In this document: positions 11,919-17,325 of the stretch, one piece after another
How the letters are laid out: each line of letters starts with the position of its first letter
Numbering within the stretch: the stretch's first letter is position 1
Assembly (NCBI GenBank): GCA_024413595.1
Contig: JAKSUC010000005.1
Span: 1 to 64,000 of the forward strand
Length of the DNA stretch: 64,000 nt
From: Bacteroidales bacterium
GTDB taxonomy: Bacteria; Bacteroidota; Bacteroidia; Bacteroidales; UBA3824
Direction of reading: 5' to 3'
Notes under the pieces: model-generated
Told to the model about the DNA's origin: nothing
The model's database searches: none
The model's input: only the letters and a program-made list of their open reading frames with translations
Program-made: the position numbers and the translations under genes

Positions 11919-13322
11919 TTAATCAAACAGATTATCCATGTTAATTTCTGATTGACAAATAGAGTAGTTTTTATTTTGATGTATACCGTAAGTTGTTATA
12001 AATGTGTTTACTAAAGTTTTTTTGACCTTAATTTTTTCACGAAATTGCGCCATACGAGTTCTTAATTTTTCTGCATAATCATTTGTAATTGTATATTTAT
12101 CAGTAGAAAATTTAATTTCGCAAAGATTTATTATTCTATCAGCTCTATCAATTATTAAATCAATTTGAAAATCTTTTGTACGGCAAGTTGTTGAATTTGT
12201 TGAAATTACAGAAAGACCAAGAGCTTTTTTTATTTGATCTAAATGTTTTAGGCATATCAATTCAAAAGAAAATCCTTGCCAAGTATTTATCGAAGGTTGA
12301 TTTATGTTTTTAGACCAAAAGTTTTTTTCTTTACTATTATTTTGTATAAAATTAAAATAAAAAAGAGTATAAAAATCAGATAATCTGTAAATTGAATCTT
12401 TTATAGATTTTTCATATTGAGTATAATTGATAATAAAATCGCATTTTTCAAGATTAGACAACATTCTTGTAAGAGTACTACCTTGAATCTTAGTTTTTTT
12501 GATAATTTCATTTCTTGTTAATCCCTTATCTTTAACACTCAGAGCTTTAACAATAGATATATATTTATCAGCATTACTAAAAAGTGCATTATATAATTCA
12601 TCAAACTCGTTTTTTAGCAATCCATTTTTCGAAAAACACAATTCATCAATATTTTGAGCAAGACTTAATTGATTATTTAATAAAGTTAAATAAAAAGGAA
12701 CGCCTCCAAGTATCATATAAGTTTGTAAAATCATGTAGCGATCCCATTTAAAATTATTTTTCTCTAAAAACTCTTCAGTTTCTTTAAGATTAAAAGGTTC
12801 AAGAAAAATTTGACATGTAATTCTGTTATGTAATCCTCCTTGATTATCAATAAGTTTGTCGTTAATCCAAGAAGTTGCCGAACCGCTTGCTATTAGCATT
12901 ATATCATTCCTAAGCGAAGCCCATGCGTTCCAAAAATATTCTAATGCTTTTACAAATTTAGAATTATGAGAATCAATCCATGGCATTTCGTCAAAAAAAA
13001 TAATTTTTCTACTTTTTGAAGGAAGTGAATCTATATAGTTTCTTAATTGTTCAAAAGCATCAAACCAATCTTTTAGTTTAATATTAAAAATTGATTTTGA
13101 ATAATGTTTTAAACAATCAGAAAACCTTGCAAGTTGTTCTGTATTAGTTAAATTATGTCCACCAGTATAATAAAAAGCATATTTATCAGAATATAATTGA
13201 TTTATAAGAAAAGTTTTTCCCACGCGTCGTCTACCTGAAATAATAACAAATTCAGACCTTGACGATTTTAAACATTTATTTAGTTTATTAATTTCTTCTT
13301 TTCTGCCAATTAATTTATTCAT
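11919..13322 (-). CDS. AAA-type ATPase with C-terminal DUF234/PD-(D/E)XK-like domain, AT-rich copy
   Basis: A 467-aa paralogue of the ATPase at 7356-8774 with the same domain order. Walker A is GRRRVGKT (30-37), Walker B IIFFDEMPW near 107-115, and GSATSW follows. A winged-helix part has GLTRNEIIKKTKIQGSTLTR. The C-terminus carries FQIDLIIDR...LCEIKFS with D388, E402 and K404. Both genes start with M-N-LIGR-EEI-LN. Its base composition is that of the host (18 G/C in 12241-12300), so it is either resident or a much older arrival than its paralogue. A -7 box stands 28 bp upstream. Pairs of stem-loops flank the gene on both sides. Confidence 0.9.
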   Translation of the reverse strand: MNKLIGRKEEINKLNKCLKSSRSEFVIISGRRRVGKTFLINQLYSDKYAFYYTGGHNLTNTEQLARFSDCLKHYSKSIFNIKLKDWFDAFEQLRNYIDSLPSKSRKIIFFDEMPWIDSHNSKFVKALEYFWNAWASLRNDIMLIASGSATSWINDKLIDNQGGLHNRITCQIFLEPFNLKETEEFLEKNNFKWDRYMILQTYMILGGVPFYLTLLNNQLSLAQNIDELCFSKNGLLKNEFDELYNALFSNADKYISIVKALSVKDKGLTRNEIIKKTKIQGSTLTRMLSNLEKCDFIINYTQYEKSIKDSIYRLSDFYTLFYFNFIQNNSKEKNFWSKNINQPSINTWQGFSFELICLKHLDQIKKALGLSVISTNSTTCRTKDFQIDLIIDRADRIINLCEIKFSTDKYTITNDYAEKLRTRMAQFREKIKVKKTLVNTFITTYGIHQNKNYSICQSEINMDNLFD

Positions 13323-13372: not shown

Positions 13373-13467
13373 AACTGCAACCAAATCTTAAAAAAAAAAT
13401 GAGATTTGGTTACAGTTGTTTTATTAATACCAACCAAATCTAATAAAACAATTGAGATTTGGTTGGT
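13373..13467. repeat. Stem-loop repeats, copies d and e
   Basis: Copy d has 16-bp arms at 13373-13388 and 13402-13417 with one mismatch. Copy e has perfect 13-bp arms ACCAACCAAATCT (13429-13441) and 13455-13467. They mirror copies b and c on the other side of the ATPase gene and share the core CAACCAAA. Confidence 0.85.
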
Positions 13468-13522: not shown

Positions 13523-13552
13523 TTTGTATTATCGAAAATTGATATAAATTTG
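13523..13552 (+). promoter_or_regulatory. Promoter of the attenuated aromatic operon
   Basis: TTTG at 13523-13526 and TAAATTTG at 13545-13552 are both exact consensus boxes, spaced by 18 bp. Transcription would begin near 13559, giving a leader of about 155 nt before pheA. Confidence 0.75.
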
Positions 13553-13572
13553 CAACGAAAAAATAAGAAACA

Positions 13573-13635
13573 ATGGTATTATACAACAAAGCATATTATT
13601 ATTATTACTTTTACTTCAGCAATAAGGTGAGGTAA
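13573..13635 (+). CDS. Tyr/Phe-rich leader peptide of the pheA operon
   Basis: A 20-codon frame encodes MVLYNKAYYYYYFYFSNKVR and ends in TAA. Nine of 20 residues are Tyr (7) or Phe (2), with a run of eight aromatic codons. It starts about 14 nt after the predicted transcription start and precedes a terminator and then the prephenate dehydratase gene. This is the design of amino-acid attenuators, in which the ribosome stalls at codons for the scarce end product. The last codons (AAG GTG AGG) contain GGTGAGG, which can pair with part of the terminator. Confidence 0.85.
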   Translation: MVLYNKAYYYYYFYFSNKVR

Positions 13636-13669
13636 TAGTTTTTTTGTTGTATATAAAAAATAAAAAGAT

Positions 13670-13704
13670 AAAGCCTCACCAAATATTTCGGTGAGGCTTT
13701 TTTA
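13670..13704 (+). terminator. Attenuator terminator upstream of pheA
   Basis: Perfect 11-bp arms AAAGCCTCACC (13670-13680) and GGTGAGGCTTT (13690-13700), a 9-nt loop and a short T-run, ending 10 nt before the pheA ATG. CCTCACC of the left arm can instead pair with GGTGAGG at 13626-13632 inside the leader peptide gene. That pairing is possible only if no ribosome covers the leader's end. Stalling on Tyr/Phe codons would therefore allow read-through, and completed translation would favour termination. Confidence 0.85.
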
Positions 13705-13714
13705 TTACAAAAAA

Positions 13715-14557
13715 ATGAGAATAGCAATTCAAGGCGTAAAAGGAGCATTTCACGAAGTGGCTGCTCGAGAATATTTTGCAAATAGAGAAATTGAAATAAT
13801 AGAAAAAATCTCTTTTGACGATGTTATGCAATCAGTAATAGGTTTTGAAAGTGATTTTGGAATTATTGCAATTGAAAATACTATTAGCGGAACAATTCAT
13901 GCCAATTTAAAGCTATTAAAACAATATGACGTAAAAATTTGTGGTGAAATATTTATTCGTATACAACAAAATTTAGCAGTATTACCAGGCGTAAACATAG
14001 AAAATCTTACAGAAGTTAGAAGCCATTATATGGCAATAAATCAAACAAGACAATTTTTTAAACATTATCCTAAAATACGTCTTGTAGAAAGCGAAAGTAC
14101 AGCTGTAAGTTTTCGTCAAATATCAGAAGAAAAATTAACAACAGTAGGTGCAATAGGAAGCAAACTTGCAGCTCAAATGTACAATCTTGAAATAATATCT
14201 TCAGGAATAGAAACCAACAAAAAAAATTATACTCGATTTTTAATAGTAGAGCCAAGTACAGGCAATGGTTCAAATATTTGCAATAAATCTTCGTTGAGTA
14301 TTATTTTACAAAATCATCAGGGAAGTTTATCACAAATATTAAGCATAATATCATTTTATGGAGTAGATTTAACAAAAATAGAATCCATTCCAATAATAGG
14401 CCAACCACTTCATTATATGTTTTATATCGATATAAAATATCAAGATTATCAACGATATAAAGAAATGTTAAATGCCATTCGACCCTTACTCAAAGAATTA
14501 ACAGTTTTGGGCGAATATAGGGCAGGAGAGGAGTCTTGGAATGCAGTAATAATGTAA
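13715..14557 (+). CDS. pheA: Prephenate dehydratase with ACT domain
   Basis: A 280-aa monofunctional prephenate dehydratase, which converts prephenate to phenylpyruvate. It has AIQGVKGAFHEVAA at the N-terminus, IAIENTISGTIHAN, and the catalytic TRF motif in NYTRFLIVE. The C-terminal ACT domain (about 190-270) starts SLSIILQNHQGSLSQILSII and normally binds Phe for feedback inhibition. The start at 13715 lies just after the attenuator; an earlier frame start at 13691 falls inside the terminator stem and is rejected. First structural gene of the operon; no chorismate mutase domain is attached, that activity being supplied two genes downstream. Confidence 0.95.
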   Translation: MRIAIQGVKGAFHEVAAREYFANREIEIIEKISFDDVMQSVIGFESDFGIIAIENTISGTIHANLKLLKQYDVKICGEIFIRIQQNLAVLPGVNIENLTEVRSHYMAINQTRQFFKHYPKIRLVESESTAVSFRQISEEKLTTVGAIGSKLAAQMYNLEIISSGIETNKKNYTRFLIVEPSTGNGSNICNKSSLSIILQNHQGSLSQILSIISFYGVDLTKIESIPIIGQPLHYMFYIDIKYQDYQRYKEMLNAIRPLLKELTVLGEYRAGEESWNAVIM

Positions 14558-14586: not shown

Positions 14587-15432
14587 ATGAAACTATCGGT
14601 TATTGGATTAGGTTTGCTAGGCGGATCTTTAGCATTAGATTTAAGAAAAAGAAAATTTGCAGATCGAATATTAGGTTATGATAAAAGTTTAGTACATTCA
14701 TCATACGCCAAAGAAGTAGGATTAATAGATGAAGCAGTAACATTTGACGAAGCAATTTCGCAAGGCGACATAATAATTGTTGCAGTTCCAGTAAGCGCAG
14801 TAATAAAATTAATGCCAAAAATATTAGATAAAATTACAGAAAATCAAATAGTTGTAGATGTAGCAAGTACAAAAGGAACAATTTGTGAACGAGTAAAATA
14901 TCATACAAATCGCAAAAGATATGTTGCTTGTCACCCAATGGCAGGAACCGAAAAATCAGGACCTTGGTCTGCAATTTCTGGAATGTTTGATGGTAAAGCA
15001 ATAATAATGTGCGATACAGAAGATAGCGACGAAAAAGCTGTTCAAACAGTAAAACAAATGTTTGAAGTATTAAACATGAATACCATGTTTTTTAATTCAT
15101 TTAATCATGATGTTCACGTAGCATACGTATCACACATGCCACACGTTTGTTCATTTGCATTGGCATTAACAGTTTTAGAAAAAGAAAAAAACGAAAAAAA
15201 TATTTTTAATTTAGCATCAGGAGGTTTTGGTAGTACAGTTCGTTTAGCAAAAAGTGGTGCTGATATGTGGGTGCCAATTTTTGATGACAATAAAGATAAT
15301 GTAATGACTGTATTAAACACATATATCGAAAAACTACAAGATTTTAAACGTCTTTTAGAAAATGACGATATTGCAGGTATGGAAGATTATATAAATCAGG
15401 CAAATAGAGTTAAAAAAGTATTAAATAAATAG
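14587..15432 (+). CDS. tyrA: Prephenate dehydrogenase
   Basis: A 281-aa NAD(P)-dependent dehydrogenase that converts prephenate to 4-hydroxyphenylpyruvate on the way to Tyr. The Rossmann motif GLGLLGGSLA is at residues 6-15. Further hallmarks are IIVAVPVSAV, VVDVASTKGTICE, the substrate-site CHPMAGTEKSGP and the helical FNLASGGFGSTVRLAKSGADMW. It starts 29 bp after pheA, so Phe and Tyr branches are co-transcribed under the same leader peptide. Confidence 0.95.
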   Translation: MKLSVIGLGLLGGSLALDLRKRKFADRILGYDKSLVHSSYAKEVGLIDEAVTFDEAISQGDIIIVAVPVSAVIKLMPKILDKITENQIVVDVASTKGTICERVKYHTNRKRYVACHPMAGTEKSGPWSAISGMFDGKAIIMCDTEDSDEKAVQTVKQMFEVLNMNTMFFNSFNHDVHVAYVSHMPHVCSFALALTVLEKEKNEKNIFNLASGGFGSTVRLAKSGADMWVPIFDDNKDNVMTVLNTYIEKLQDFKRLLENDDIAGMEDYINQANRVKKVLNK

Positions 15433-15569: not shown

Positions 15570-16634
15570 ATGATAGATTTTAAACAACTTTTTGGATCAC
15601 GACCATGGATTATAGCAGGTCCATGTAGCGCAGAAACACAAGAACAAACATTAAAAACAGCTAAAGAATTAGCAGCAAATGGAATAAAAGTATTTAGAGC
15701 TGGAATTTGGAAACCAAGAACACGACCTGGAAATTTTGAAGGAGTAGGAAGCGAAGGTTTAGATTGGCTAAGAACCGTAAAAAATGAAACAGGTATGTTG
15801 GTTTCAACAGAAGTAGCAAATGTAAAACACGTTTACGAATCATTAAAAGCAGGAATTGATATAATTTGGATTGGCGCAAGAACATCAGCCAATCCATTTG
15901 CAATGCAAGAATTAGCAGATAGTTTAAAAGGAGTTGATATACCTGTATTTGTAAAAAATCCAGTAAATCCAGATGTAGATTTATGGGTTGGCGCAATAGA
16001 ACGTCTTGAAGATGCAGGAATTAAACAATTAGGACTTATTCATAGAGGATTTTCAAGTTATGAAAAAATTTTATATCGCAATGCACCAATATGGCAAATG
16101 CCAATTGAAATAAAACGTCGTCGTCCTGATTTACCATTAATTTGTGATCCAAGTCACATTGCTGGCAAACGTGAATATTTATTAGAAATATCACAAAAAG
16201 CACTTGATTTAAATGTTGATGGATTAATGATAGAATCACATTGTGATCCAGAAAATGCTTGGAGTGATGCCAAACAACAATTAACACCTCAAGCATTAAA
16301 AGAAATGTTAGAACAACTTGTTGTTCGTGAAATATCACCAGAAGGAATTTCTCCAAAATTACTTGATGAATTACGTGCCAAAATCGACGTTTTAGATGAT
16401 ATGTTGATTGATTTATTGAAAAAACGTATGAATATTTCTGAAAAAATTGGTTTATACAAAAAAGAAAATCAAATGGCAGTTTTGCAACCACATCGTTGGG
16501 ATACTATAATAAACAAATATATGATGATGGCTGGTGAAAATAATCTTAGTCGTGAATTAATAACCAAAATATTTCAAGCAATTCACCAAGAATCAATCAA
16601 TATTCAAGATAAAATCATAAACCCTAAAAAGTGA
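15570..16634 (+). CDS. aroF: DAHP synthase fused to chorismate mutase
   Basis: A 354-aa bifunctional enzyme typical of Bacteroidetes. Residues 1-260 are a type I beta/KDO8P-like DAHP synthase with IIAGPCSAET, FRAGIWKPRTRPGNFEGVG, VKNPVNPDVDLWVGA and CDPSHIAGKREY. Residues about 265-354 are an AroQ-type chorismate mutase with LLDELRAKIDVLDDMLIDLL and KRMNISEKIGLYKKEN. It thus carries both the first step of the shikimate pathway and the branch step to prephenate. The 137-bp gap before it holds no clear terminator or leader peptide, so it is probably part of the same operon; aroD follows 4 bp later. Confidence 0.95.
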   Translation: MIDFKQLFGSRPWIIAGPCSAETQEQTLKTAKELAANGIKVFRAGIWKPRTRPGNFEGVGSEGLDWLRTVKNETGMLVSTEVANVKHVYESLKAGIDIIWIGARTSANPFAMQELADSLKGVDIPVFVKNPVNPDVDLWVGAIERLEDAGIKQLGLIHRGFSSYEKILYRNAPIWQMPIEIKRRRPDLPLICDPSHIAGKREYLLEISQKALDLNVDGLMIESHCDPENAWSDAKQQLTPQALKEMLEQLVVREISPEGISPKLLDELRAKIDVLDDMLIDLLKKRMNISEKIGLYKKENQMAVLQPHRWDTIINKYMMMAGENNLSRELITKIFQAIHQESINIQDKIINPKK

Positions 16635-16638
16635 TAAA

Positions 16639-17277
16639 ATGTTATATTTATGTTTATCAGCCCAAGGTGTAGAAAATGCTTTATTACAATTAGGTGATTA
16701 TAAATATGCAGAATGGCGTTCTGATTTGATAGGCTCTGATATACCACAACTTACAGAAGTATTAAAAAACAAGAATCATAATTTTATAGTAACATGTCGT
16801 CCTGGAGTATTTACTGAAGATTATGATATTAAGATGTTGTATACAGCAGCATTATCGGGAGCAGAATATGTTGATCTTGAAATAGAACGTGCAGAAAATA
16901 ATGCTCATTTTATTAAAGATGCTTGCATTAAAAGTAAAAAATGCAAACTGATAATTTCTTATCACAATTATGACGAAACACCAGATGTTGAAACTTTAAA
17001 CAATATAATTTTAAAATGTAGATTATATGGTGCTGATATAGTAAAAATTGCATGTAAAGCAAATAATAAGAATGATTGCTCAAGAATATTATCACTTTAT
17101 CAAGAAAATAAAGATATTGTAGCCTTTTGTATGGGAGAATTTGGAAAAATAACACGTGTAGCATCTTTATATTTGGGAGCAAAATTTACATACGTGGCTA
17201 GTTCTCAAGAAGGAAATACAGCACCTGGACAATTAACATTAAATCAGACTTCTCAAATTTTAGATATTTTAAAATAA
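16639..17277 (+). CDS. aroD: Type I 3-dehydroquinate dehydratase
   Basis: A 212-aa class I dehydroquinase, the third step of the shikimate pathway. Motifs are EWRSDL (25-30), CRPGVFTEDY, VDLEIE, the catalytic His109 in ISYHNYDET, the Schiff-base Lys136 in DIVKIACK, and the C-terminal SQEGNTAPGQLT. Begins 4 bp after the DAHP synthase gene and is followed by a strong bidirectional terminator. Confidence 0.93.
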   Translation: MLYLCLSAQGVENALLQLGDYKYAEWRSDLIGSDIPQLTEVLKNKNHNFIVTCRPGVFTEDYDIKMLYTAALSGAEYVDLEIERAENNAHFIKDACIKSKKCKLIISYHNYDETPDVETLNNIILKCRLYGADIVKIACKANNKNDCSRILSLYQENKDIVAFCMGEFGKITRVASLYLGAKFTYVASSQEGNTAPGQLTLNQTSQILDILK

Positions 17278-17290
17278 TAATTTGAAAAAT

Positions 17291-17325
17291 AAAAACGGAA
17301 GTGTGTTTTCACTTCCGTTTTTTAT
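17291..17325. terminator. Bidirectional terminator between aroD and the hsp20 gene
   Basis: Perfect 13-bp arms AAAAACGGAAGTG (17291-17303) and CACTTCCGTTTTT (17310-17322) with a 6-nt loop. The A-rich left flank and T-rich right flank allow use by both convergent genes. Confidence 0.9.

Follow-up and report, generated by a model that had tools for sequence, protein, structure and literature searches.

A Tyr/Phe leader peptide and a predicted ribosome-mediated transcription attenuator in front of the pheA-tyrA operon of a rumen Bacteroidales bacterium

The leader of the Escherichia coli pheA gene (Rfam RF01859, Phe_leader) and the trp and his leaders of Enterobacteria each encode a short peptide with a run of codons for the amino acid whose synthesis is regulated, and the locus described here does likewise. 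Classical attenuators of amino-acid operons have been predicted on a genome scale (Vitreschak, 2004; Lopatovskaya, 2010; as cited in PMC10272879 and PMC4833913). For the phylum Bacteroidetes, a leader-peptide RNA is known in the form of Bacteroid-trp (RF01692; PMC2864571), 'strong clues' for leader-peptide attenuation in front of amino-acid biosynthesis operons have been reported from Flavobacterium psychrophilum (PMC9723704), and sORFs have been found in 5' UTRs of B. thetaiotaomicron (PMC7366714). The main-text passages of the latter two papers concern the same phylum and give neither the anatomy of a pheA leader nor a comparison across the phylum. An earlier note on the DNA studied here, made from the sequence alone, had stated that attenuators are little described in this phylum. 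With respect to pheA this stands, as we found no description of Bacteroidetes pheA (Tyr/Phe) leaders, of their spread in Bacteroidia or of tandem forms in the open-access literature; as a general statement it goes too far in view of RF01692 and of the passages in PMC9723704. The mechanism considered below is textbook knowledge and its trp case is already known in the phylum, while the pheA Tyr/Phe leaders appear undescribed within the open-access literature.

The window analyzed here, a stretch of 64,000 nucleotides from a rumen Bacteroidales bacterium, contains an attenuator candidate directly 5' of the Tyr/Phe biosynthesis genes of this organism (Table 1). The operon pheA-tyrA-DAHP synthase/chorismate mutase-aroD covers the synthesis of the common aromatic precursor as well as of Phe and of Tyr, a gene content with which a joint Tyr/Phe signal fits. 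That the operon may answer to both amino acids had been surmised in the earlier note, and the presence of tyrA and of the DAHP synthase-chorismate mutase gene agrees with this; the same two genes dissolve the puzzle that the note had seen in a Tyr-dominated leader whose first downstream gene is for Phe. Considering its sequence and that of its relatives, we regard it as highly likely that the region in front of pheA acts as an attenuator of the classical, ribosome-mediated kind and would tune transcription of the whole operon to the levels of charged tRNA-Tyr and tRNA-Phe.

Table 1. Features of the pheA operon and of its leader region; positions refer to the window.
Feature	Position	Strand	Characteristics and evidence
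Promoter, Bacteroidetes type	13523..13552	+	TTTG 13523-13526 (-33), 18-nt spacer, TAAATTTG 13545-13552 (-7)
Leader peptide gene, MVLYNKAYYYYYFYFSNKVR*	13573..13635	+	20 codons; aromatic-rich leader kept in 16/16 assessable same-genus genomes
Candidate protector (1:2) helix, 5' strand TATACAACAAA	13580..13590	+	Perfect 11-nt inverted repeat, inside leader gene
Control codons, YYYYYFYF	13594..13617	+	Codons 8-15; sequence; 8 consecutive Tyr/Phe codons
Antiterminator 5' arm GGTGAGGT	13626..13633	+	Overlaps final leader codons and stop
A-U hairpin inside antiterminator	13638..13669	+	13638-13648 x 13659-13669
Candidate protector (1:2) helix, 3' strand TTTGTTGTATA	13643..13653	+	Folding; inverted repeat
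Intrinsic terminator	13670..13703	+	Perfect 11-bp stem, AAAGCCTCACC 13670-13680 / GGTGAGGCTTT 13690-13700; conserved in genus
Antiterminator 3' arm GCCTCACC (terminator left arm)	13673..13680	+	Pairing and genus alignment
pheA, prephenate dehydratase; ACT-like region at the C terminus	13715..14557	+	PF00800, E 7.8e-51; ATG start codon at 13715
tyrA, prephenate dehydrogenase	14587..15432	+	PF02153, PF20463
DAHP synthase-chorismate mutase fusion	15570..16634	+	PF00793, PF01817
aroD, type I 3-dehydroquinase	16639..17277	+	PF01487; final operon gene
Probable end-of-operon hairpin	17291..17322	.	Listed on the - strand by the hairpin scan; stem symmetric

The gene upstream of pheA (11919-13322) is divergent, being encoded on the minus strand, so that pheA opens its transcript. 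It codes for an ATPase_2/AAA protein of the archaeal-type ATPase family with weak similarity to DUF234. Between this gene and the pheA promoter lie two near-identical inverted repeats of the pattern AACCAAATCT-N13-AGATTTGGTT (13379-13411 and 13432-13464; spaced 53 bp). No other copy of this pattern is present in the 3.9-Mb genome; the repeats possibly represent operator sites or paired hairpins.

The elements that the earlier note had listed were recovered when the region was re-inspected: the promoter matches the phylum consensus, and the 20-codon leader with its eight consecutive aromatic codons (7 Tyr and 2 Phe in the whole peptide) and the perfect 11-bp terminator ending 10 nt before pheA are exact to the base. 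According to PMC9723704, the −7 consensus of the phylum is TAnnTTTG, to which TAAATTTG conforms; this motif is also found 5' of 61 of the 97 first leaders in the comparative collection described below (6.0 in shuffles). The terminator stem has a predicted energy of −17.8 kcal/mol, and its T-run (13698-13703) starts within the right arm of the stem. GGTGAGG (13626-13632) pairs, as had been proposed, with CCTCACC in the left arm of the terminator (13674-13680), and a U13633-G13673 pair extends this helix to 8 bp. The resulting antiterminator (GGUGAGGU, 13626-13633, with GCCUCACC, 13673-13680) competes with the terminator and reaches a total energy of −20.5 kcal/mol when the enclosed A-U hairpin is included. 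The leader RNA as a whole, whose folding the note had advised, has an energy of −39.0 kcal/mol vs. −19.65 ± 3.57 kcal/mol in dinucleotide shuffles (z −5.4). The aromatic run by itself is unremarkable in this AT-rich genome, in which 71 Tyr/Phe runs of seven codons occur, a number below that of a reversed-pattern control (105). Its significance lies in the combination with the terminator, the antiterminator and their conservation. Among the 30 own-genome loci that we inspected, no other run lay in a short frame starting with ATG and also had a strong terminator.

In the mechanism that we propose, RNA polymerase would start near position 13557 and a ribosome would begin to translate the 20-codon leader. 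Under a shortage of Tyr or Phe, this ribosome would stall in the eight aromatic codons with its front edge upstream of GGUGAGGU; the free GGUGAGGU could then pair with GCCUCACC before the right arm of the terminator exists, and the polymerase would continue into pheA. When Tyr and Phe are plentiful, the ribosome would reach the stop codon and cover GGUGAGGU, the 11-bp terminator would form, and the transcript would be expected to end in the cell at positions 13700-13704. The earlier note had assigned termination to a ribosome at the stop codon and antitermination to one stalled in the run, and both the comparative data given below and folding with ribosome footprints support this assignment. 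With a footprint in the aromatic run and the right arm of the terminator absent, the antiterminator forms with about 11 expected pairs; a footprint at the stop codon leaves 0.1 expected pairs of it. In the full-length RNA the terminator is the more stable structure in most states, even with a ribosome stalled early, so that antitermination must be kinetic, as it is in known attenuators.

Folding also points to a perfect inverted repeat, 13580-13590 x 13643-13653, as a candidate protector helix, which forms along with a pairing between the Tyr/Phe-codon region and GGUGAGG. If the leader were left untranslated, these two pairings would probably favor termination as well. The protector strands fit their own partners (−15.0 kcal/mol) better than partners swapped between loci (−10.0 kcal/mol); the alignment of the genus contains no covariation in this helix and does not support it there. 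The locus may not be the 'compact two-state' device that the earlier note had described, as the two pairings resemble a classical 1:2 protector.

An effect of the leader on pheA could be envisioned at the level of translation instead of transcription, with the leader acting as a translated uORF through translational coupling or reinitiation. Many structural genes of Bacteroidetes have a short leader gene close by, and reinitiation has been proposed as its mode of action (PMC4833913). The effect discussed in that paper, however, concerns distances of about 10-14 nt, whereas 79 nt separate the leader stop from the pheA start codon here, with the strong terminator hairpin placed in between. The conservation of a terminator together with a matched antiterminator likewise argues against such a translational role, and we judge this explanation to be extremely improbable.

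We collected PheA relatives from 98 related genomes, the public genome collection, and samples of the class and of the phylum, and applied a uniform leader detector, which required a frame that opens with ATG, has no more than 60 codons and contains 6 or more Tyr/Phe out of 8. Every one of the 16 same-genus genomes whose sequence extends upstream of pheA carries an aromatic leader there (two further ones, cut at a contig end, were left out). The close relative L034/L004 has the leader. Aromatic leaders precede pheA at 76 of the 95 loci of the broader first set and at 21 of the 40 loci of the class Bacteroidia sample; with the uniform detector, none was found at 20 loci from Bacteroidota outside Bacteroidia. 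Dinucleotide shuffles evaluated with a similar detector gave about 0.3 leaders per 95 and 0.1 per 40 loci, and the reverse strand gave 1 and 0, respectively. Taken together, the leader recurs at 97/135 Bacteroidia loci, with less than one expected. A terminator follows within 150 nt in 114 of 116 leaders. The leader sequences themselves diverge widely (e.g., MNHFSFTYFYFYFYFSNKVKRDFNV, MTKNTTYWFGYFYYYQ, and MKFNNAYFYGYYFYFTSKSRD), and the hairpin arms vary along with them. Leaders are absent before pheA in L038, whose PheA is 64% identical, in Prolixibacteraceae and in several other families. In at least one leaderless case (L093), a reading frame on the same strand stops about 100 nt before pheA, and to judge from the sequence its pheA may therefore lie inside a transcript.

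Within the genus, conservation extends to the pairing, and the loss of leader and GGTGAGG in relatives, which the earlier note had named as refuting its reading, was not observed there. In the same-genus alignment, 95.8% of the cells of the antiterminator helix are paired vs. at most 55% when the helix is slid, and a compensatory change from U-A to C-G is present in four sequences. The left arm of the terminator joins both pairings in this alignment. RNAalifold recovered the terminator only, an outcome that is to be expected for mutually exclusive structures.

We then asked for each leader how strongly the region around its stop codon pairs with the left terminator arm of the same locus. This pairing has a median energy of −14.3 kcal/mol, compared with −9.4 kcal/mol when the arms are swapped between loci, and 80 of 114 leaders score at p ≤ 0.05 against dinucleotide shuffles, while about 30% miss this threshold. 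The antiterminator arm keeps an almost constant distance from the midpoint of the aromatic run (median 25 nt, SD 3.9), which is the geometry needed for a ribosome that stalls there. Its distance from the stop codon, in contrast, is variable (SD 11.6 nt), with arm positions between the interior of the leader and a point shortly after its stop. With a ribosome simulated mid-run, 112 of the 114 leaders attain an antiterminator value of 0.5 or more; moving the ribosome to the stop codon reduces this number to 18. These data bear on the most trivial explanation, a constitutive terminator (an ordinary transcription end or an unregulated promoter-proximal pause) accompanied by a chance ORF. Phe and Tyr codons do arise easily in AT-rich sequence; however, chance accounts neither for the recurrence of the leader in Bacteroidia nor for an antiterminator complementarity that exceeds that of swapped pairs and is maintained by a compensatory change, so that we attach next to no probability to it.

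If such leaders sense the product of their operon, other operons should be preceded by other codon runs, and trpE and hisG are. Leaders with a WWW run such as MRNFNAYNNWWWRLRNKNS stand 5' of trpE in the same genus (L111-L125). One of these, MAYNNWWWRLRSKKS of L121, is a member of the Rfam family RF01692 (51.7 bits vs. a threshold of 49); the leaders L111 and L115 score under this threshold, and the model therefore looks narrow for the genus. The his operon of relatives is preceded by leaders with a His run such as MKYTECHTIHHHHHHYGGR. In the window's own genome, the leader MKLSLAHIKNHHHHHHLIGGNNCVR (HHHHHH) and a subsequent terminator precede hisG (L238:1178-1255; G000:C194), which makes it a second predicted attenuator of the same type. 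No convincing attenuator was found at the operons for Thr (homoserine dehydrogenase) and for Ilv (ilvD) in the genus. A chorismate-binding enzyme of the TrpE/PabB family was not found in the organism's own assembly (G000), as opposed to 15 of 17 congeners; either the organism is a Trp auxotroph or its assembly has a gap.

The codon runs of the Trp and His operons also speak against the notion that the aromatic ORF in front of pheA is incidental and that a protein or a metabolite controls the terminator through a riboswitch, an RNA-binding protein or a T-box. Another sensor could use the same terminator and antiterminator equally well, and chance runs of aromatic codons are common in an AT-rich genome. 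Yet no match to a riboswitch or T-box is found in Rfam at the window even at E ≤ 1, and none at the gathering level in the loci of 14 relatives. The aromatic ORF, moreover, recurs in most pheA loci of Bacteroidia, and its run keeps a fixed distance from the antiterminator despite diverging sequences. This explanation is consequently very unlikely. In terms of ribosome-mediated attenuation, the locus combines a leader ORF with the codons of the product, an intrinsic terminator, an exclusive antiterminator with compensated pairing and a footprint geometry appropriate for a stalled ribosome.

The pheA locus of the window has a single leader unit. At 20 leader-bearing loci from several lineages of Bacteroidia, two aromatic leaders are arranged in series, about 110-160 nt apart (among them L041-L048, L051, L054, L058-L060, L063, L064, L070, L080, L153, and L157; L046, L048, and L054 are from Ancylomarina). 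Nearly all of these tandem leaders have their own terminator downstream, and by our count both units pass the antiterminator test in nine loci. Trp is also present in 40 of 117 leaders, and the second leader of a tandem often contains Trp codons. We lean toward the view that Bacteroidia possess widespread, undescribed leader-peptide attenuators (Phe/Tyr, His, and Trp), of which the aromatic one is often doubled, in some cases with Trp codons, and could gate the common aromatic pathway in a graded or two-step manner.

Ribosome-mediated attenuation depends on a leading ribosome that is not outrun by RNA polymerase. A leader family that extends through the class therefore allows a direct test of transcription-translation coupling in Bacteroidia and, if the proposed spread of attenuators is true, coupling in this phylum would be tight. 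The predicted attenuator of the window is clearly delimited and open to testing, and it comes from a phylum with atypical expression signals, which has its own promoter type and, as stated in PMC9723704, does not rely on Shine-Dalgarno sequences for initiation. Nothing in Rfam scores above threshold at the window, RF01692 included, which has no match at the pheA leader; the aromatic leaders of pheA, tandem ones among them, are a family that is missing from this database.

Compared with the attenuators of pheA, trp, and his in Enterobacteria, the locus shares the exclusive antiterminator and terminator, the position of the stop codon near the antiterminator arm and the biosynthetic operon downstream. 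Against the Phe_leader model RF01859 the window scores 27.5 bits vs. a threshold of 55; the two leaders would work in a similar manner without belonging to the same sequence family. Unlike the E. coli pheA leader, the leader of the window is dominated by Tyr codons and a single operon serves both Tyr and Phe, and unlike the systems of Enterobacteria it is preceded by a Bacteroidetes promoter. Bacteroid-trp, the leader-peptide RNA from the same phylum, carries Trp codons in front of a trp operon, where the window combines Tyr and Phe codons with an operon for both of these amino acids.
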